This document shows, piece after piece, positions 9,602-62,962 of a stretch of DNA of 64,000 nucleotides. Source of the DNA: a virus; IMG/VR virus record IMGVR_UViG_3300006735_000018, positions 28,963 through 92,962 of that record. One strand, 5' to 3'. How positions within the stretch are numbered: position 1 is the stretch's first letter; each line of letters begins with the position of its first letter. The notes beneath the pieces were generated by a model, which was given only the letters and a program-made list of their open reading frames with translations, had not been told where the DNA came from and ran no database searches. The translations under genes and the position numbers were made by a program.

Positions 9602-9811
9602 TTATCTATTAACTCTTTGAAACATTCCTTCTAGGATTTCTTCTATTGCTGATATAACAGCGTACTCGTCATTACCCCAGTTGGACTTATGACGTTCAAT
9701 AAGTCTTTCAACTATATATTTAACGTCTTTATCTAATAATTCCCATTTTCTATCATCCTGGGGTTGCCAGTATGACTCCTCTCTTAATATTTTTTTAATT
9801 AGTTTGTCCAT
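9602..9811 (-). CDS. Small protein with propeptide-like N-terminus
   Basis: 69 residues from the ATG at 9811. An in-frame ATG six codons upstream gives only MIFIII extra and overlaps the previous gene further, so I prefer the shorter form. It starts MDKLIKKILREESYWQ, one of the short amphipathic N-termini ending in (I/L)-x-E seen in other proteins here. The rest is helical and acidic (VKYIVERLIERH, AVISAIEEILEGMF). Function unknown; possibly head cargo. Confidence 0.5.
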   Translation of the reverse strand: MDKLIKKILREESYWQPQDDRKWELLDKDVKYIVERLIERHKSNWGNDEYAVISAIEEILEGMFQRVNR

Positions 9812-10034
9812 TATTATTATAAATATCACATCTAAGTTCTTTATTTAACTTAAGGTGTGGTGGCCAAAAAGGACAGTGTCTACAACCACTACCACAACAA
9901 CTTCCTCTTCTTTTATGATACTCTTCTGTCATTACCATAACACCTCCTTCCCAATAAAAATCTTTAGGTTGTAATTTAGGTTTTAAAAATTCCTTATAGT
10001 GTAACTCACTAATCCAATCGTCATTCCTTTTCAT
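9795..10034 (-). CDS. DUF5522-type Cys-rich protein
   Basis: 79 residues. The core MVMTEEYHKRRGSCCGSGCRHCPF matches, at its central positions, the conserved YHLxRGxCCGxGCRHCPY signature of DUF5522 proteins, small probable metal-binding proteins frequent in Bacteroidota. The cysteines form a CC-x3-C-x2-C cluster with an adjacent His. It overlaps the zinc-ribbon gene upstream by 14 nt, so the two are likely co-translated. The function of the family is unknown; presence here suggests acquisition from the host. Confidence 0.65.
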   Translation of the reverse strand: MKRNDDWISELHYKEFLKPKLQPKDFYWEGGVMVMTEEYHKRRGSCCGSGCRHCPFWPPHLKLNKELRCDIYNNNGQTN

Positions 10035-34825: not shown

Positions 34826-37800
34826 TTATATGTCTTCAAATGAAGCTCCTGTTGGAGTTATTAGGAATTCAATAAATATGAATTCTAGTGCTCTTGTTGG
34901 TTTGATGTAAATCTTACCGTTCATTTCATTTCTATCGATTTCTTCTGGGTCATCTGATAATACAACTCTAAAGTCTGTTAAACCTCTATCTCTTCTTATA
35001 GAGTCTAAAATTGGGTTAACTAAGTCTAGGAATTGTTGTCTTACCACATCATCATTTTGTTCGAATAGTAATCTAACCGCAACTGCTGAAATCAGTTTTC
35101 TAGTTTGTAATAACAATCTTCTTACATTTATTCTATCTAAAGCCGATTCTTTAACTTGTAAAGTCTTGTTACCAAATATAATCGGACCTACATCACTAAA
35201 TGTAGCGATTGGGTTAATTCTACCAACATATAACGTATCTCTATCGTCTAAAGTTAGTTTTGTTCTAGCTTTTATTGCGTTAACGATACCTCTAGTATAA
35301 CCAGCCGATGCGAACCATGGGAAAGCTATATTATCTGTTAATGCTAAGTTTCTAGTAACTTCAGCTGTTGGTGGAATATATAATTGTTTATTTGTGTTAT
35401 TATCTCTAACAAGTACCCAAGGATAGTAAGTCGCTGTATAGTTAGAATCTATAAAACTATCTTCTACATTGTTAACAGCTTCTGTTGGGTCAATTTTATT
35501 ACTCGCGTCTGAAGTAGTACTAACAAATAAGTTGTAATCTGGTGTTGTAGTGATATATAGTGAATCCGCTCTTTCGTTTTCAACCATATCTATAGTGTCA
35601 TTTACTAAAGCTAAGTTGTTAACATAATCAATTCCTGGTGTAGCGAACACATTAATATCTACAGCTTCAGGGTTTTCAAATTTATGAATCGCTTGTTTGT
35701 AAGCGTCATAATCTGTATTTGACTCTGTAGATGAAATCTTTTTAAACGACCCTAAACCACTAGCGTCAGTATATGTTGAGTCTGCACATGCTCCATATTT
35801 GTAACCTGTCATACCTAGTCTATAAGCGTCTTCGTTTGTTCTAGTCTTTCTATACTCATCCCATCCATCAAAACCACCATAAGGTGCTAATGTAAACTTT
35901 CTAGATTGTATCTTATAATAAGGGTTAGTTGTTGACGTTGGTTCTGATTTAAAGTCTGCTTCACCAACCATAAACATAGATTTACCACTTAAAGTAGATG
36001 CTGTTTCTGTTAAATAAGAACCTGAACCTGCTATAACCACTGTAGCTCCAGAATCCATATGGAATCCTTGTGTTAACACTGGCCAGTCACTACCAGTAGT
36101 ATCAGTACAAACTGAAGCTGGTGTTTTAAATCCTTTATATTCAAAGAAGTCAAAGTCAATAGCCGCACCATCTCCATCAGAGAATCCTAAATAATTTTTT
36201 CTAAGATTATCTCCCGCTGAAACAGAAGCGTTACTAAGATTACCCGCTGAATCATAATATGGGTCAAACACAACTTCACCTGGTGTAAAGTATTTAGTTT
36301 TCCATTTTGGGTACGGGTTTACTGTACTTGTACAAGATTCTCTAAATTTATAACCTTCGAATCCAGCCGGTAAAGCGTCTTTTAAGTCACCTTCAATAAC
36401 TGGGTCAGTTAATTCTAACATTGTGTAAGTAGACCTTAATTCGTATTCACCATCTGAAGTACCAATTTTTCTAGCTATAAAGTTTGGTGCTGTTGGGTCT
36501 AAACTACATCTAGTGTATTTTTCGAATACTATTGGGTTAGCGTCTGTATCATAAAAATCTCTAACGACAACATCGAATTCTACTCTTTCGAAAGAAATGT
36601 TAGTTATAGATATTTTATGTTCTCTATTTGCTGCTGAACCGTCTGAGATTGATATGAATCTAAATAATCTAGAAACTTCGTTACCTCGTAATTCAGAAAC
36701 AACATAAGGTGTTCTAGGTGTTTGCCACTCATTCATGTACCAACCTAAAGAAGTTCTTAGTGTATTGTTAAATCTAGCTGCTGGTCTGTAACATGTACAA
36801 CAGTTAATTCCTCTAATTTTTTGTCTTCTATATAGATACTTTAGTAAATTAGGGTATATTTCTTCTACAAAAATAGGAATTTCATTAGCTTCTCTATCAA
36901 ACACCTTTCTACCTAAAACTCTAGATAGATAATTTTTCTTAGTATTATCTAAGGATGCTGTAAATTTAGATATTACACCTTCATCTGTTTTTGCCGAAAT
37001 ACCAAAATTAGCAAATGGGTCTCTTAAAACATCGTTATATGTACCTGTACAATCAAAGTCTACATCACCTTGTTTGTAACCATCTCCCGTACTTGCACTA
37101 ATTTTATATACTGGTCCACCACTTGTAAGTGTACTTTCACCTCTGGACCTTAAAGTTGCAATTGTCATGTTATGATAATCAGTGTTTGCACTTACACAAC
37201 TATAATTTGCGTAAGCCCCACTTAATGTTAATCCTAAATAAGTTACAGCTGAACAACTTCCAGTGTAGAATGTTGTAAAGGCTGAAACTGAATTACCAGT
37301 AAAGAACCAAGAATCAGTAGCGTTAGTTGTTCCGGTTAAACCATTTGCTACAACCGAACCTGCTTTAAGTCCTGGAGAATATGTAAGTGAATTAGCAAGA
37401 CCATTAGTACTAGCGTCTCCTAGTAAACCGGTATTGGCAAATCCACTTAAGGTTACTTGTACCGCTGTATAAGCTGGAGAACTTCCACCAATGGACGTTC
37501 CTGCACAAGTTTGTAATTTATAATCTGATACAGCTCCTGAATACTGTGCTGCTGTAAATGTTGTTACAGCTGCAGATAACGTACTACCAGTACCATTTGA
37601 ACCTACGAAAGGATAAACTGTTGGTTGATAAGCGGATAAAGCTAATGGTCCTCCGTTTAGAGCACCTTCTGCGTTACCCCAAGATTCTGTTCCTGATGAA
37701 TATGAGAAGTAATTACCTGAAGAAATTTGTCCAGGTATATTATTACCACCGTTTGTAGCTGCACCGTAGAATGACCATTCAGACCACGATGATGCTGAAG

Positions 37801-38935
37801 TTGATGCTGTATAACCATTTAAGTTAACTACGTGAGTTGAACTACCTGGTTTAATTAAGTTAGGTAGTATAGCGTATACTGTTGTACTAGCTTTATCGTC
37901 TGATGAACCTGATACTCCAGTACTAACAGCTCCCTCAACATAAGTTGTAGCTGTAGAAGCTGAACTAACAAACATTGTAAACGCACCTCCTGAGTAACAA
38001 CTATTTGTACAAGAATCTACGTCATATTTGTAATCAAATAATGAGTTATACCAACCATCATTAGTATCTGCTGAAAAATCAGCACTTTTAATAGCTTCTG
38101 GTGCTGAAGCTCCAACACCTGTTGGTCCAGCTGTTAAGTTATTTGCTATACCTAATCTATTATATGAATCAACCGGTAAACCAGTTGTTCCTGTAATTCT
38201 TGCGTATTGTTGACTTGTTGTTGAAGAAGCTATAAAACCGTATTGGTAAAATTCTGTAGCTCCAGTTATATCAAATGAACTCTGGTCATTATCTAATGTA
38301 GCGTTAACAAAGTGAGCTATTTCATCTACTAGAGTACCAACAGCACTACCTTGACCATTATACCAAGTTTCACCTGTTATTTGTTCTGCTGTTCTAAATG
38401 GTCCATTAACACCAGCAATTGGTGAAACTGTTAAACCACTTAACGCATCTGCGAAAGCAGTACCGTTTGAGTAAGTTGTGTATATATTGGATGTGTTTAG
38501 TGTTCCACCTGTAAGTGGGACATATATCCTATCTTCCCAAGCAGATACGGTTTGTCCTGTAGAACCACTTGCTACATATAACTCATCTAATTCACCTATT
38601 GTTAATAACTGCCATGATGGTCCAGCGTCATAACCAGATAACCCTAACACTCTTGTCACAAACAATTGGTTAGATTGTGATAGGTAAGACCTAGCAATAA
38701 ATGATGTCTCATATTTAGGAATCTGTGATTCTGTGAACTTTTCTGGGTCCGTATCACCGAACCTTGTTCTAAATTTATCAAAAGAATCTATGAATATAGG
38801 TTCAAATGCTGGACCTTTTTTTGTTTCACCAGCAACCCCTAGGGTTGTTACTCCAACACTTTGTGCTACAAACGTTAAATCCTTCTCTGCGGTGTATACA
38901 CCTGGAGATACGAATACTTTTTGATTTTCAGCCAT
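34826..38935 (-). CDS. Tail sheath protein, gp18-like, with very large insertion
   Basis: 1369 residues, about twice T4 gp18 (659). The core is clear at both ends: N-terminal VFVSPGVYTAEKDLTFVAQS and VTTLGVAGETKKGPAFEPIF; C-terminal NPIATFSDVGPIIFGNKTLQ, INVRRLLLQTRKLISAVAVR, and TPTGASFEDI. Residues about 100-620 are a Ser/Thr/Gly/Ala/Tyr-rich beta-type region interrupting the core; the conserved body resumes near YLSRVLGRKVFD. Sheath contraction drives the tube through the host envelope. The insert probably forms an exposed decoration on the sheath surface. The nearest TATTTAT is 35 nt upstream. Confidence 0.88.
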   Translation of the reverse strand: MAENQKVFVSPGVYTAEKDLTFVAQSVGVTTLGVAGETKKGPAFEPIFIDSFDKFRTRFGDTDPEKFTESQIPKYETSFIARSYLSQSNQLFVTRVLGLSGYDAGPSWQLLTIGELDELYVASGSTGQTVSAWEDRIYVPLTGGTLNTSNIYTTYSNGTAFADALSGLTVSPIAGVNGPFRTAEQITGETWYNGQGSAVGTLVDEIAHFVNATLDNDQSSFDITGATEFYQYGFIASSTTSQQYARITGTTGLPVDSYNRLGIANNLTAGPTGVGASAPEAIKSADFSADTNDGWYNSLFDYKYDVDSCTNSCYSGGAFTMFVSSASTATTYVEGAVSTGVSGSSDDKASTTVYAILPNLIKPGSSTHVVNLNGYTASTSASSWSEWSFYGAATNGGNNIPGQISSGNYFSYSSGTESWGNAEGALNGGPLALSAYQPTVYPFVGSNGTGSTLSAAVTTFTAAQYSGAVSDYKLQTCAGTSIGGSSPAYTAVQVTLSGFANTGLLGDASTNGLANSLTYSPGLKAGSVVANGLTGTTNATDSWFFTGNSVSAFTTFYTGSCSAVTYLGLTLSGAYANYSCVSANTDYHNMTIATLRSRGESTLTSGGPVYKISASTGDGYKQGDVDFDCTGTYNDVLRDPFANFGISAKTDEGVISKFTASLDNTKKNYLSRVLGRKVFDREANEIPIFVEEIYPNLLKYLYRRQKIRGINCCTCYRPAARFNNTLRTSLGWYMNEWQTPRTPYVVSELRGNEVSRLFRFISISDGSAANREHKISITNISFERVEFDVVVRDFYDTDANPIVFEKYTRCSLDPTAPNFIARKIGTSDGEYELRSTYTMLELTDPVIEGDLKDALPAGFEGYKFRESCTSTVNPYPKWKTKYFTPGEVVFDPYYDSAGNLSNASVSAGDNLRKNYLGFSDGDGAAIDFDFFEYKGFKTPASVCTDTTGSDWPVLTQGFHMDSGATVVIAGSGSYLTETASTLSGKSMFMVGEADFKSEPTSTTNPYYKIQSRKFTLAPYGGFDGWDEYRKTRTNEDAYRLGMTGYKYGACADSTYTDASGLGSFKKISSTESNTDYDAYKQAIHKFENPEAVDINVFATPGIDYVNNLALVNDTIDMVENERADSLYITTTPDYNLFVSTTSDASNKIDPTEAVNNVEDSFIDSNYTATYYPWVLVRDNNTNKQLYIPPTAEVTRNLALTDNIAFPWFASAGYTRGIVNAIKARTKLTLDDRDTLYVGRINPIATFSDVGPIIFGNKTLQVKESALDRINVRRLLLQTRKLISAVAVRLLFEQNDDVVRQQFLDLVNPILDSIRRDRGLTDFRVVLSDDPEEIDRNEMNGKIYIKPTRALEFIFIEFLITPTGASFEDI

Positions 38936-42667: not shown

Positions 42668-44311
42668 ATGAGTCTTATCCGAGAAGAAATAAATAGAGTT
42701 AGAGAAATAATGGGTTTACCTGTAATTAAAGAACAGGTAGAAATACCAGCTGACACTTCTCGTAATATGAAAAATAATGTCTATAAAGATTTCTGGAATA
42801 AATATGATACTATGACTTATTGTAATTTTTTAGAGTACTGGAAAAATAAATACAATGAAGAGTACAGTGAAAACAATGGTGGTAGTTATGAACAATCTGT
42901 TAAAGACGCTTTTGAAAAACATAAAACTTCAAAATTACCACTAAGACTCCTTAATACTTTTGCTTGGATAGAAAATCGTGGTCGTGAAAAAGGCGATAAC
43001 GGTCAAGGTTGTTGGGGATTATTTCAATATTGTAGACCTTATTGGTCGGATTATGGTATAACTAGTCAAGAGGATGCTGAAAATGCAGATATCGCTACAA
43101 GACAATTTGTAAAACACGCTACAAGTTTAGGTAATAGTTTTTCTAGTAGTATTGGGGTGGATGTTTTTACTCCAGAAAATCAGTGGTTATTATATCTTGT
43201 ATGGCAACAAGGTTCTGGTGGTATTAGAAGAATTTATAATAATTGTGAAGATACAGAAACATTTAAAGGTGATAAAATATTTGTAAAACCAGAACTGAAA
43301 ACCATAGGACCTAAAACAGTAGGAGATATTGAAATGGGCAAAGATACATTACAAAGAGGTGATAGTGGTGATTTAGTTAAATATGTACAACTTATGTTAG
43401 TTAACGACTATAGTATCGATTTAGGTGAAAGTGGTCCTATGAATGATGGTATAGATGGTAAGTTTTTAGATATTATGGAAGATGGTGTAAAAGAATTCCA
43501 AGAAAGATTTAATTTAGTGGTAGATGGTGTTGTAGGTAGGTGTACATTAGAAACTATAGTTAAGGGTAGAACCCCTAGATGTTGTAGAAAAAATGCTTGT
43601 AAAAAAGATAATTGTAAAGATTCTGTTTGGTGTAGTAAAATTAAAAAGGATAAAGAAAAAATAACTAAAAATAAGAAGAAGGACGACAAAGAGGTAAATG
43701 TGAATAATGTAACACCTGGTAATAAACTACCTGGTAACTTTGCTGAAATACCTGGTGGACAAGGAAACTTTAGATGTGAACAACCTACCCTTAAAGAGTT
43801 GGCCAAAGTATTTGAGGATTACCCCGATATAGAAAGGGTTGTTAGGATGAATAACGAAGAGGGGACCGGTGTTGAAAAACATGATGAAAAAGCATATGTA
43901 GAATCTACAGGTAGAGAATATATATGGTTTAATGCTCATGACCCTTATCGTGGTGGAAGAAACTATGAAACTGGTTACACCGGAGCTGTAGAAAAGGGAT
44001 TAAACGAACTTAATAAAGGTAACACTTTAATTCATTGTACACATGGTGCTGATAGAACTGGTTTTGTTGTAGCTGCCTACATTAAAGAAAGACTGGGTTG
44101 GTCTAATGAAAAGTTATGGGACTATACCACTCAATTTAATGGTTGGGATGGTGGTTATGATGGTTGTTGTGCTAATGCAAAATATAGGAGTAAATTAATT
44201 TGTAACGCTACTAATTTTGTTTACTACCTATCTTCCTTTTATCCTATAAAAGAGTGGTGTGAAGCTAAAGAAGCCAGAATGGATTGTAAAGTTTGTAAAA
44301 AATATAAATAA
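42668..44311 (+). CDS. Muralytic enzyme fused to a protein-tyrosine-phosphatase-like domain
   Basis: 547 residues in four parts. (1) Residues 1-22: helix ending PVIKE|Q, the shared propeptide-like site. (2) About 85-195: lysozyme/transglycosylase fold, NTFAWIENRG with candidate catalytic E102 and CWGLFQY at 115-121. (3) About 228-298: peptidoglycan-binding domain, LQRGDSGDLVKYVQLML then GVKEFQERFNLVVDGVVG. (4) About 370-530: phosphatase, with LIHCTHGADRTGF holding C457 and R463 of a C-x5-R loop, and AHDPY upstream that could supply the general acid. A Cys/Lys-rich linker (300-345) joins 3 and 4. The muralytic part suits entry or lysis; the phosphatase substrate is unknown. TATTTAT lies 16 nt upstream. 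Confidence 0.8.
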   Translation: MSLIREEINRVREIMGLPVIKEQVEIPADTSRNMKNNVYKDFWNKYDTMTYCNFLEYWKNKYNEEYSENNGGSYEQSVKDAFEKHKTSKLPLRLLNTFAWIENRGREKGDNGQGCWGLFQYCRPYWSDYGITSQEDAENADIATRQFVKHATSLGNSFSSSIGVDVFTPENQWLLYLVWQQGSGGIRRIYNNCEDTETFKGDKIFVKPELKTIGPKTVGDIEMGKDTLQRGDSGDLVKYVQLMLVNDYSIDLGESGPMNDGIDGKFLDIMEDGVKEFQERFNLVVDGVVGRCTLETIVKGRTPRCCRKNACKKDNCKDSVWCSKIKKDKEKITKNKKKDDKEVNVNNVTPGNKLPGNFAEIPGGQGNFRCEQPTLKELAKVFEDYPDIERVVRMNNEEGTGVEKHDEKAYVESTGREYIWFNAHDPYRGGRNYETGYTGAVEKGLNELNKGNTLIHCTHGADRTGFVVAAYIKERLGWSNEKLWDYTTQFNGWDGGYDGCCANAKYRSKLICNATNFVYYLSSFYPIKEWCEAKEARMDCKVCKKYK

Positions 44312-44781
44312 TGAATGACTTTGAAAGACTTATAGACGATTTGGACCCCGTAAAAGGTGGTCCCCTAACAACACTGACTAACCCAGAGAGACACGACGTG
44401 GCGAGGTTTATAGAGCAGCTTAGGTTGTGGGGTAAATATAATATGGTAATGACAGATTTAAGTCCGTTTCTAACTGATGCTAAATCTGTTATAGAAGGAG
44501 AACTCGCTCAAGAGATACTATTATATGCAAAAGAAACAGAAGAATTTCCGGTTAATATGTCAGAATTTATGGAAAATCAACCAGAATCATTACGATATAT
44601 TTGGGAAAACTCTCAAAAAATGAGAGATTTAATGACTAGAGCTACATTAAGATTTATGGAGTCACAAAATTTAGGTATGGACGATAAAAATATTAATGAT
44701 GTTTTTAAAATGTTATCTAGAAAAATTTATCAAAGTATTTTAAGAGGACCCTTTTTAAGTAGAATCCAATCAAAAAGCTAA
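44311..44781 (+). CDS. Helical hypothetical protein
   Basis: 156 residues, nearly all helical and acidic (VIEGELAQEILLYAKETEEF, MRDLMTRATLRFMESQ), with no motif recognised. The ATG overlaps the lysin-phosphatase stop by one base, so it is coupled to it. Its 3' end overlaps the convergent minus-strand gene by 12 nt. The 5' 150 nt are less A/T-rich than the surroundings. A partner of the upstream enzyme is possible. Confidence 0.55.
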   Translation: MNDFERLIDDLDPVKGGPLTTLTNPERHDVARFIEQLRLWGKYNMVMTDLSPFLTDAKSVIEGELAQEILLYAKETEEFPVNMSEFMENQPESLRYIWENSQKMRDLMTRATLRFMESQNLGMDDKNINDVFKMLSRKIYQSILRGPFLSRIQSKS

Positions 44782-45834
44782 AGATGGGAATGTGTTTCTA
44801 GAAATTTCTGGAAAATTATCAACCACATTAGTTTTTAACCAAGGACCCCAATTATCATAAATGTTTTCACTCCAACTCCAAAAATTCTTATAACTAATAG
44901 GTCCACTAATAGGTTTTGCTTGTTCTGGTTTAAAAGGTGTATTATTTTTCATAGACTCATATAAATTATTACTAGAACTATAAAGTAACATCATTAGTGG
45001 TAAATTTAACCCGTCCATTTCCATTTTACTCATTAATGTGCCAGTTTCTAATGAAAGTGGTACTAAATAAGACATGGTTTGTGGTTTTATCTTAAACTGA
45101 TTTAATTTTTGTTTTACGTTTTGTGGTTGTAAATCTAATTGTTTTACTAACTTATCTTCTATAATTTTTATAAGTTTATTAGATTGTATTTTTTTTATAT
45201 CACCTATTTTATCGTCACTATCAAACTTAGTTTTCATATTAATTTCTGGTACTGAATCCCCTTCTGTACTTTGTGAACTTTGTGTAGTTTGTGTAGTTTG
45301 TGTGTCTTGTGTTGTTTGTGGTTGTGATGTTTGTCTAGGTTCCGAAGTTGTATCTATAGGTTCTACCGTTGTTACTGTTGGTCTTGTTATTGGCCTTCTT
45401 CTAACTTCACCACTACATGGTGAATTACTTATACAGTCTCTTTGTGTGTTATAATAAGGAAATCCATAAAACAATGTTCTTTGTATACCAGCATCATCTC
45501 TAATTTGTTGACATCTTGGGAAATTTACGGGGTCTTTACATATCCATTTACCCATAAGTTCTCTTCTTTCTTGTTCTCTTTCCCTATCTTCTAAGTCTTC
45601 TCGTTCCCTTTCTTGTCTTTCTCTATCGTCTATTCTTTCTTCTTCTCTTTCCCTATCCTCCCTTTCTCTATCTTCTCTTTCACGTTCCCTATCCTCAATT
45701 TCTCTATCTTCTGGTTCTCTACTAGGGGTTTCCCTGTCTACTTCAACGTCACGTCTAAGGTCCATATCTTCAACGTCCTCTTTATCCCTAACCTGTTCTA
45801 ATATAACTTTATGTATGATATTCAATAATTTCAT
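44770..45834 (-). CDS. Propeptide-tagged protein with long Arg/Glu/Asp charged repeat
   Basis: 354 residues. Begins MKLLNIIHKVILEQVRD, almost the same N-terminus as the WYL protein. Residues about 20-90 are a run of E/D/R residues built on DRERE, likely one long charged helix. About 92-135 has four cysteines (WICKDPVNFPRCQQIRDD and others), and about 140-200 is a Thr/Gln/Ser linker with TQTTQ repeats. The C-terminal 150 residues form a helical domain without known relatives. TATTTAT lies 5 nt upstream. Packaged cargo is inferred. Confidence 0.6.
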   Translation of the reverse strand: MKLLNIIHKVILEQVRDKEDVEDMDLRRDVEVDRETPSREPEDREIEDREREREDREREDREREEERIDDRERQEREREDLEDREREQERRELMGKWICKDPVNFPRCQQIRDDAGIQRTLFYGFPYYNTQRDCISNSPCSGEVRRRPITRPTVTTVEPIDTTSEPRQTSQPQTTQDTQTTQTTQSSQSTEGDSVPEINMKTKFDSDDKIGDIKKIQSNKLIKIIEDKLVKQLDLQPQNVKQKLNQFKIKPQTMSYLVPLSLETGTLMSKMEMDGLNLPLMMLLYSSSNNLYESMKNNTPFKPEQAKPISGPISYKNFWSWSENIYDNWGPWLKTNVVDNFPEISRNTFPSLAF

Positions 45835-45996: not shown

Positions 45997-46431
45997 TTAG
46001 AATCTATATGATAAACCAAGATTGAAAGTGCCCTCTCTTTCTCCGTTCTCATCTTCTTTTAATCCCATACTGTAATTTGGTTCAACGTATAAACCATTCC
46101 ACACATTGTATGAATAACCTAAACCTAGCGTTAAGTTGTCCATCATTTCTTCTGTTGGAGCTTGAACTGATACATACACGTTTGCGTTCCAGTTGTATCT
46201 CCCCCAAAGGTCGTAAGACTTGTCACCTAATGAATCTTCTCCAGCTGTTACTAAACCAACAGTCCAAGTATCGTTTAATTTATAACCAATACCCATGTTG
46301 TCAGTTAAGTTAGACATTTCGAATGATTCACCATCTTCTGGTGAACTGTAAGTTGTTACTACCATGAAATTCTGTGCTGATGCAAATAATGTTGAAAGTG
46401 CTACAGCGGATGTTAAAATCAATTTTTTCAT
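45997..46431 (-). CDS. Outer-membrane beta-barrel protein with signal peptide
   Basis: 144 residues. The signal peptide has a basic start (MKKLILTSAVALSTLFASA) and likely cleavage at ASA|QN, as typical in Bacteroidota. The mature part has alternating strands with aromatic girdles (MGIGYKLNDTWTVGLVTAG, YDLWGRYNWNANVYVSVQ, LTLGLGYSYNVWNGLYVEP) and ends LGLSYRF, the terminal-aromatic signal for barrel insertion. About eight short strands would fit. A phage-made barrel could alter the host surface, for example to block further adsorption; function is inferred. Confidence 0.75.
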   Translation of the reverse strand: MKKLILTSAVALSTLFASAQNFMVVTTYSSPEDGESFEMSNLTDNMGIGYKLNDTWTVGLVTAGEDSLGDKSYDLWGRYNWNANVYVSVQAPTEEMMDNLTLGLGYSYNVWNGLYVEPNYSMGLKEDENGEREGTFNLGLSYRF

Positions 46432-46512: not shown

Positions 46513-46737
46513 TTACTTCTTAACGAAGAATGACGTTAAAAGTACTAACACGATTAAACCTACGAAACCTCCTTCACCAAGTGAAGTGATAAGAGCAGAA
46601 AGATTTGCTACTACATCCATTCCGAAAACTGAACCACCTGTTAAGACGTACCACAAGATTGATACTGGAACTACAGCCATTAAAACTGAACCTAGTCCTC
46701 CAAAAAATCCTGTAATCATTTTCATTACGTTATCCAT
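46513..46737 (-). CDS. Small two-helix membrane protein (holin-like candidate)
   Basis: 74 residues with two hydrophobic segments (about 8-31, VLMAVVPVSILWYVLTGG; about 54-71, GFVGLIVLVLLTSFF) and a basic end VKK. There is a Gly-rich N-terminus and no signal peptide. Size and layout fit a class II holin or a small inner-membrane modulator. It is upstream of the outer-membrane protein and has a host-type promoter. The gene is less A/T-biased than its flanks. No specific family recognised. Confidence 0.55.
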   Translation of the reverse strand: MDNVMKMITGFFGGLGSVLMAVVPVSILWYVLTGGSVFGMDVVANLSALITSLGEGGFVGLIVLVLLTSFFVKK

Positions 46738-48258: not shown

Positions 48259-48591
48259 TTATCTTCTTCTAATCTTTCTCATTCTTTTGTAACCTTCTTT
48301 CATCATCTCTACACCCATATCCATGTCCATTTTACCTCCACCTGCAGGAGTCATATCACTTGACATAGGACCCGATGGTGCCATAACCTTGTCGTCTTGT
48401 ACTAATGGTTTACAACATGAACAGTCTGATGATTGGTCTTGAAAATCTATAGTACCATAACAACCTTCGTCGTCACCACACTCACACCACCATTCTACAT
48501 CCTTTTCTACCAATAAAGGTTTTTTTGATTCCTTAATAACTCTAGCAATGATTGATTGTAGATTTTTTTCAGTTAGTCTAATTTTTTTCAT
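48259..48591 (-). CDS. Propeptide-tagged small Cys-rich protein
   Basis: 110 residues. Begins with the clearest long-form helix: IRLTEKNLQSIIARVIKE|S. Residues about 33-62 have seven cysteines (WWCECGDDEGCYG, SSDCSCCKP), suggesting a small metal- or disulfide-stabilised unit. A Met/Gly/Asp-rich segment (PSGPMSSDMTPAGGGKMDMD) and a basic tail (RMRKIRRR) follow. It stands alone, with TATTTAT 18 nt upstream and tandem hairpins downstream. The basic tail could bind DNA; inference only. Confidence 0.6.
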   Translation of the reverse strand: MKKIRLTEKNLQSIIARVIKESKKPLLVEKDVEWWCECGDDEGCYGTIDFQDQSSDCSCCKPLVQDDKVMAPSGPMSSDMTPAGGGKMDMDMGVEMMKEGYKRMRKIRRR

Positions 48592-59930: not shown

Positions 59931-60326
59931 ATGAAACTTTACAATGTCATATCAAACCTTATACTTGAGCAAGCATCTCAATCAGAAATTATAGATGCTA
60001 TAAAAAATAAACATGTCTGTGAATTAGAGTATGAGGATGATATGAGTATAGGTCCAGGTAAACGAGTAATACAACCTGTAGCTTTTGGTGAATCTTTAAG
60101 AAATAATAAAGTTATTAGAGCTTATCAAACATCAGGACCATCATTAAAAGTAAATGAAGAGGGTATTCCTCTACCAGATTGGAGATTATTTAGATTAGAT
60201 AGGATAAGTAATTTTAAACCAATTAAAGGTGAGGATTCTGTTTTTGAGACTTTTACTGAACCACCTATGTATAATCCGTTTGGTGATAAATCTATGAACA
60301 GACTTTTAGTTAATTCAAAATTTTAA
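59931..60326 (+). CDS. WYL-domain-like protein with propeptide-like N-terminus
   Basis: 131 residues. N-terminus MKLYNVISNLILE|QASQ matches the short form of the shared helix and nearly equals that of the charged-repeat protein. The remainder reads as one WYL domain: IIDAIKNKHVCELEYEDD, then KRVIQPVAFGESLRNNKV, IRAYQTSGPS, and DWRLFRLDRISNFKPI, corresponding to the R-x-x-x-P, Y-L-x-A-Y and F-R-L-D-R-I positions. WYL domains usually sense ligands or nucleic acid and control regulators or defence enzymes. No helix-turn-helix is present. Virion delivery is inferred. Confidence 0.65.
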   Translation: MKLYNVISNLILEQASQSEIIDAIKNKHVCELEYEDDMSIGPGKRVIQPVAFGESLRNNKVIRAYQTSGPSLKVNEEGIPLPDWRLFRLDRISNFKPIKGEDSVFETFTEPPMYNPFGDKSMNRLLVNSKF

Positions 60327-62671: not shown

Positions 62672-62962
62672 ATGAATTTCTTTAAAAACATGTTAAGTAG
62701 TGAAGGTAAAGTCTCTAGTAAGAGATTTGTTACTTTCGTATGTCTTCTATTTATGTTAATAGGATACACAGCTAATCTATTCTGGGATTTTACTATCGAG
62801 GAAAATTTATTTCAATCACTACAGTGGATTGTAATGGCTGGTCTTGGTTTTACAGCTGCAGAGAATTTTTCACCTAAAGGTGAGGAGGTTGTAGAAGAAG
62901 AACCAGAACCAACTAGAACAACTGTGACTCACGAATATTATGATGATGAAGAAGACTACTAA
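62672..62962 (+). CDS. Two-helix membrane protein, holin-like
   Basis: 96 residues. A basic N-terminus (KVSSKR), helix 1 (FVTFVCLLFMLIGYTANLFW), a short loop, helix 2 (SLQWIVMAGLGFTAAENF), then an acidic tail (EEVVEEEPEPTRTTVTHEYY). Size, topology and charged tail fit a class II holin or spanin-like accessory. It has its own upstream element and a strong terminator. A lysis function is inferred and not proven. Confidence 0.6.
   Translation: MNFFKNMLSSEGKVSSKRFVTFVCLLFMLIGYTANLFWDFTIEENLFQSLQWIVMAGLGFTAAENFSPKGEEVVEEEPEPTRTTVTHEYYDDEEDY

Follow-up and report, generated by a model that had tools for sequence, protein, structure and literature searches.

The enzymes known to be carried by virions against the host envelope belong mostly to the glycosidases, peptidases, esterases and lyases. 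Phage tail lysozymes and other virion-associated peptidoglycan hydrolases are built from SLT-like or lysozyme parts and peptidoglycan-binding parts, and in the collections and literature that we searched no phosphatase domain is described for them. Phosphatases of the protein-tyrosine phosphatase (PTP) superfamily also occur in phages, among them the PTPc or dual-specificity phosphatases (DSPs) of mycobacteriophages GenevaB15 and Aziz (phrog_10650). Here we describe a gene in which the two kinds of part are found together. It lies at 42668-44311 of a 64,000-base window, the whole stretch analysed, which corresponds to bases 28963-92962 of the 92,962-base IMG/VR virus record IMGVR_UViG_3300006735_000018 (a partial record, labelled G000). 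The open reading frame (ORF) is intact, and its product of 547 amino acids comprises a short N-terminal tag, a putative wall-cutting domain, a peptidoglycan-binding domain, a Cys-rich linker and a C-terminal domain with the predicted fold of a PTP/DSP phosphatase (Table 1). An earlier note on this DNA had picked out the motifs from which the analysis started, and they stand where it placed them: PVIKEQ at residues 18-23, NTFAWIENRG with E102, CWGLFQY at 115-121, and the phosphate-binding loop (P-loop) H456-C457-T-H-G-A-D462-R463-T-G.

Is the C-terminal C-x5-R loop part of a phosphatase, as that note had supposed? By predicted fold, the C-terminus of the protein is a PTP/DSP-superfamily phosphatase. 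Pfam Y_phosphatase3 matches just above its cut-off (E = 9e-5; 23.0 bits against 22.2) and DSPc matches under its own (E = 3.8e-6), while NCBIfam holds no model for the domain. A profile made from 14 family members matched PTP structures in the PDB at E = 3e-7 to 1e-6. Comparison of a predicted structure with PTP folds had been named beforehand as the check on which the assignment could fail, and the fold predicted is that of a PTP. The AlphaFold2 model, calculated from a 40-row alignment, has a mean local confidence (pLDDT) of 88.8 and a predicted template-modelling score (pTM) of 0.87; its best Foldseek match has an E-value of 4e-7 and a probability of 1.0, and the 50 best matches listed all belong to the PTP superfamily (plant and fungal DSPs, SIW14, RNA triphosphatases, TpbA, PTPMT1 and others). 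The loop Cys and Arg, C117 and R123 in the numbering of the model, follow strand 113-117 and precede helix 122-136, the canonical strand - P-loop - helix junction.

The sequence of the loop is strongly conserved. Its H, C, H, G, A, D, R, T and G, including C457, D462 and R463, are invariant in the 40 aligned members. A DNA pattern specifying GNT[LF]-[IMV]-HC-x-HG, with no constraint on the following residues, found Asp before the Arg in 53 of 53 viral places, all of which read HCxHG[AS]DRTG. Syntenic homologues of the ORF, 93% and ~60% identical, are present in two other phage contigs, L001 and L002, in which the order of helicase gene, 547-amino-acid gene and gene for a 156-160-amino-acid protein is retained. 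Both comparisons show purifying selection on the phosphatase core, the ratio of nonsynonymous to synonymous substitution rates (dN/dS) being 0.09 against L001 and 0.25 against L002; the linker is the least constrained region against the latter.

Which residue would serve as general acid? No Asp is conserved across the aligned family in the usual general-acid (WPD) loop, and the Asp at the P-loop position before the Arg is catalytic in MptpB-type phosphatases and myotubularins (PMC3091653). By analogy with these enzymes, D462 is therefore likely to be the acid, with C457 as the presumed nucleophile and R463 expected to bind the phosphate. MptpB and the atypical lipid phosphatases (HCXXGKDR) share with the window protein this Asp at P-loop position 6, the absence of a conserved WPD-type Asp and a Y_phosphatase3 match. 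They differ from it in being single-domain bacterial enzymes of low overall similarity and in their signature Lys, which is Ala in the window protein (or Ser in its family); because of this replacement (HCTHGADR) we do not file the protein as MptpB-type. TpbA, a periplasmic DSP of Pseudomonas aeruginosa, is like the family in its PTP fold (E = 5e-7 to 1e-6 for the alignment, which spans profile positions 14-132), in a P-loop that begins HCxHG and in being an exported enzyme. It is unlike the window protein as a single-domain host protein without a wall module, and its loop, HCKHGNNR, lacks the Asp, the proposed acid being Asp105 in the acid loop (PMC4409338). A loop reading HCTHGADR, in a family with no conserved acid-loop Asp, places the window protein outside the TpbA type. 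The RNA 5'-triphosphatases (capping enzyme, baculovirus phosphatase) have a closely similar P-loop, HCTHGxxRTG[FY], on a PTP fold, but with Asn for Asp, a sequence similarity centred on the loop and a TM-score of only ~0.4-0.47 on the query. For the mycobacteriophage proteins, only 18% of the query was matched, at E = 0.5, which does not establish a shared family, and the match to phrog_10650 is limited to the P-loop region.

The other half of the protein would act on the wall. The peptidoglycan-binding domain named in the earlier note is a secure assignment by its Pfam score (PG_binding_1, PF01471; E = 1.6e-8; 35 bits against a cut-off of 23), and no other protein in the record carries one. 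The lysozyme-like domain claimed in front of it stands in part: its motifs and E102 are conserved, but the link to SLT domains is remote, the region has no Pfam match of its own, and we treat it as putative. In tblastn searches two proteins were matched weakly (E = 0.3-0.4), the phiR1-37 tape-measure protein and GX1 phage ORF18, of which the second adjoins an internal virion protein. A profile of the domain, run on a small set that included both proteins as post hoc additions, matched them at 5.5e-7 and 8.5e-5, respectively. The stretch that the profile matches in the protein of Yersinia phage phiR1-37 is called SLT by Pfam (2.1e-9), and E102 aligns with the catalytic Glu of that domain. E102 and GLFQ, kept in three homologues, fit the SLT motifs I/L-E-[SN]-x-G and G-x-x-Q. 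Matches to mycobacteriophage lysin A were dropped as support for the lysozyme-like domain, as the two examined have only the peptidoglycan-binding repeat in common with the window protein.

The earlier note had not known this domain combination from described phages. Neither it nor its recurrence was found in PHROGs, in the cultured phages or in the literature searched for phage phosphatase-hydrolase fusions; in uncultured phages it is no single oddity. Dozens of phage contigs in IMG/VR encode HCxHG[AS]DRTG domains, and ORFs with HCxHGADRTG were recovered from 66 viral stretches. Among 50,697 cultured-phage records, queried with the window domain and that of L057, there was no convincing relative, and a scan of genome contigs yielded two distant bacterial relatives and nothing more. 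PG_binding_1 is present in 9 of 41 family members. One of the proteins, L043, joins the phosphatase to an M23 peptidase and PG_binding_1; L010 and L012 show weak Muramidase matches; and L016 has the tag, the peptidoglycan-binding domain and the phosphatase of the window protein with a different N-terminal enzyme-like domain. A different N-terminal carrier bears the phosphatase in L007-L009, L013, L014, L017 and L064. An adjacent carrier paralogue in L009, 54% identical in the carrier half, bears the tail lysozyme Phage_lysozyme2 in place of the phosphatase, and genes for the gp25 baseplate wedge lie near the carrier genes of L014 and L064. By gene content, the family thus occurs in two virion-type contexts, one with head-type tags and one linked to the baseplate. 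Judged from domain content, the pairing of phosphatase and wall module is a recurrent theme in phages known from environmental DNA. Its parts are of known kinds, and a categorically new entry step is possible.

The carrier genes form tandem paralogues at L009:7423-10172, L013:2476-6576 and L014:8792-12129, in which one N-terminal carrier domain (..ENSPHxxLPDPC..) is followed by exchangeable C-termini: the phosphatase, Phage_lysozyme2, weak glucosaminidase or SLT matches, or unassigned sequence. Several further partner domains were suspected by eye and found no confirmation in Pfam where scanned, namely SGNH-like domains (L012, L027, L032, L035, L046, L063), HExGH peptidase-like domains (L033, L072) and the lysozyme-like domain of L016.

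Of the other members, L019, L021 and L036 are single-domain phosphatases that, by eye, carry a signal peptide or lipobox, and L054, L057 and L062 have a membrane segment. The bacterial relatives L025 and L026 are of exported types. In a tree of the phosphatase domain, the clade of the window protein is sister to the secreted L019 and L021 (support 85 in a quick tree). Fusion to a wall module, as a label on this tree, takes six changes, of which strong branches force at least four, and the baseplate carrier takes one; a change may be a gain or a loss.

How would the window protein reach the envelope? No export signal was seen on it. The T4 protease gp21 cleaves after L/I-X-E, and propeptides of this kind direct proteins to the head (PMC9026906). 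As in the T4 internal proteins, a short N-terminal segment ending in [LI]-x-E is found here on unrelated proteins, and a gp21-type protease (Peptidase_S77) is encoded in 12 of the 15 large phage records (154-373 kb) of the family. The tag of the window protein differs in its length, 22 residues against the ~10 needed in T4 IPIII, and its role in packaging and cleavage is putative. L002 retains IKEQ despite differing residues before it, and the window protein and L016 have a common tag with different enzyme domains behind. A count over the 23 members that are neither secreted nor of the baseplate type found [LIV]xE plus a further residue from a chosen set within residues 7-34 in 19, against 3.1+-1.6 expected from random internal stretches, the set having been picked after looking and the related sequences not being independent. 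In L067:889-4473, six consecutive genes with unrelated bodies carry similar tags that end in [IL]-x-E or similar (MNLQENIQRIREMMG.., MNLKESIRKVLNE.. and others), an arrangement that has the look of a cassette for proteins packaged into the head of this uncultured phage. The tag is thus a probable capsid-targeting propeptide. Ejection from the virion is plausible for three reasons: the tag ends in a gp21-type I-x-E, unrelated neighbours are similarly tagged, and the phosphatase has relatives on a baseplate-linked carrier.

We tentatively favour a virion-borne, head-packaged entry enzyme that is ejected and whose phosphatase acts at the host envelope. The N-terminal helix and I-x-E would direct the protein to the prohead, where a gp21-type protease would remove the tag after E22, and the mature protein would be ejected with the DNA into the envelope. 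There the SLT-like domain may cut glycan strands by means of E102 and PG_binding_1 may anchor the protein at the wall, as expected from their families. The PTP-fold domain would dephosphorylate a host molecule that lies outside the cytoplasm, close to where the phage enters, for example a phosphoprotein, an envelope lipid or a phosphorylated glycan. The earlier note had likewise proposed an ejected protein with a phosphorylated host target; we place that target more probably outside the cytoplasm than within it, since the phosphatase domain has secreted single-domain phosphatases as its closest relatives and wall modules as its fusion partners.

Several observations weigh against this reading. 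Some family members have neither a wall module nor an export signal; the export signals were read by eye only, and the membrane segments of L054, L057 and L062 have no assigned orientation. The SLT assignment is remote, and structure prediction of the SLT-like domain from three sequences gave no usable fold. The bare [LIV]xE[QSAGT] motif is not enriched in G000 (8 against 5.0+-2.0), so the evidence for the tag rests on the family. The partial G000 yielded neither a prohead protease gene nor one for a gp23-type capsid protein; searches of the partial records with PF03420 and PF07068 were empty, and a search with PF04586 gave nothing. T4 internal proteins, moreover, act in the cytoplasm.

That last point also favours a different course of events, in which the protein is head-packaged in the same way, the wall is opened and the phosphatase then acts inside the cell on a host protein, a nucleotide or an RNA 5' end, countering defence or taking over signalling. 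The tag is of the T4 internal-protein kind, and RNA 5'-triphosphatases, with P-loops of the form HCTHGxNRTG, headed a single-sequence search of the PDB and recur among the fold matches. The P-loop of the window protein, however, has Asp where those enzymes have Asn, the closest relatives are exported single-domain proteins, the fusion partners are wall modules, and a wall-anchoring domain in the same chain would keep the phosphatase at the wall unless it were cut off. We consider such a cytoplasmic effector unlikely. An ordinary endolysin or lysis protein with an extra domain, which would be produced late, pass the membrane by way of a holin and open the wall as infection ends, would account for the PHROG endolysin matches and for this being the sole PG_binding_1 protein of the record, and two small membrane proteins (46513-46737 and 62672-62962) could be its holins. 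The PHROG matches fall mainly over the peptidoglycan-binding repeat, however, and an endolysin would need neither a phosphatase nor a capsid tag, yet the tag is kept in L002 and is common to unrelated proteins, and related phosphatase domains sit on baseplate-linked carriers; a role in lysis seems to us decidedly improbable. A catalytically dead PTP fold that serves for anchoring or receptor contact by binding a phosphorylated molecule of the envelope would fit the lack of a conserved WPD-loop Asp, but is very improbable given that C457, D462 and R463 are invariant and that an Asp at the acid position is required for catalysis in MptpB-type phosphatases and myotubularins.

The phage itself is contractile-tailed, with T4-like parts (sheath, tube, baseplate wedge and hub, UvsX-like recombinase, replicative helicase). 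Its DNA polymerase is only ~24-29% identical to those of cultured phages, the best matches being to Salinibacter phages, and we therefore place it in a deep uncultured lineage. The tail sheath protein (34826-38935) has 1369 amino acids; its best PHROG sheath match spans residues 1055-1366 only, so most of it is extra sequence. Two further small proteins were noticed in passing. The one encoded at 9795-10034 has the motif KRGxCCGSGCRHCPF in common with L019:1509-1835, in a second phage contig, and the one at 45997-46431, with a homologue in L001, appears by eye to carry a signal peptide like those of Bacteroidota outer-membrane proteins.

Table 1. Features of the 547-amino-acid protein and of similarly tagged proteins, in window coordinates
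Feature	Coordinates	Strand	Basis
Whole gene, 547 amino acids: tag, SLT/lysozyme-like domain, PG_binding_1, Cys-rich linker, PTP-like phosphatase	42668..44311	+	Syntenic homologues in L001 and L002
N-terminal tag, residues 1-22, ending IKE before Q; putative capsid-targeting propeptide	42668..42733	+	Family comparison, T4 motif
Putative muralytic domain, SLT/lysozyme-like, residues ~53-221; E102 (42971-42973) as candidate catalytic residue	42824..43330	+	Remote profile match, E102 conservation
PG_binding_1 domain, residues 236-296	43373..43555	+	Pfam PF01471
Cys-/Lys-rich linker, residues 301-352	43568..43723	+	Sequence; dN/dS 0.67 against L002
Predicted PTP/DSP-superfamily phosphatase domain, residues 353-547	43724..44308	+	Pfam, family profile, alignment, AlphaFold2/Foldseek
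P-loop H456-C457-T-H-G-A-D462-R463-T-G465	44033..44062	+	Invariant residues in 40 aligned members
Putatively tagged protein, MKLLNIIHKVILE followed by Q	44770..45834	-	N-terminus common with 59931-60326, body not
Putatively tagged protein, MKKIRLTEKNLQSIIARVIKE followed by S	48259..48591	-	Tag type also on other proteins in L001, L011, L027, L028 and L042
Putatively tagged protein, MKLYNVISNLILE followed by Q	59931..60326	+	N-terminus common with 44770-45834, body not

What would such a protein mean for these phages? A broader proposal, possible but in our view rather doubtful, is that a dedicated phosphatase of the HCxHG[AS]DRTG family, acting outside the cytoplasm, is delivered by phages of uncultured lineages, which repeatedly pair it with wall-cutting enzymes and load it into the head or onto the baseplate, either for entry or for blocking later phages. 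If this is true, the dephosphorylation of an envelope molecule would be a step of infection without earlier description. Repeated fusion of a phosphatase to proteins of wall entry would suggest that a phosphorylated molecule of the envelope is important for infection of the hosts of these uncultured phages, and in the search for it the family provides a compact protein that can be tested and a clear motif.
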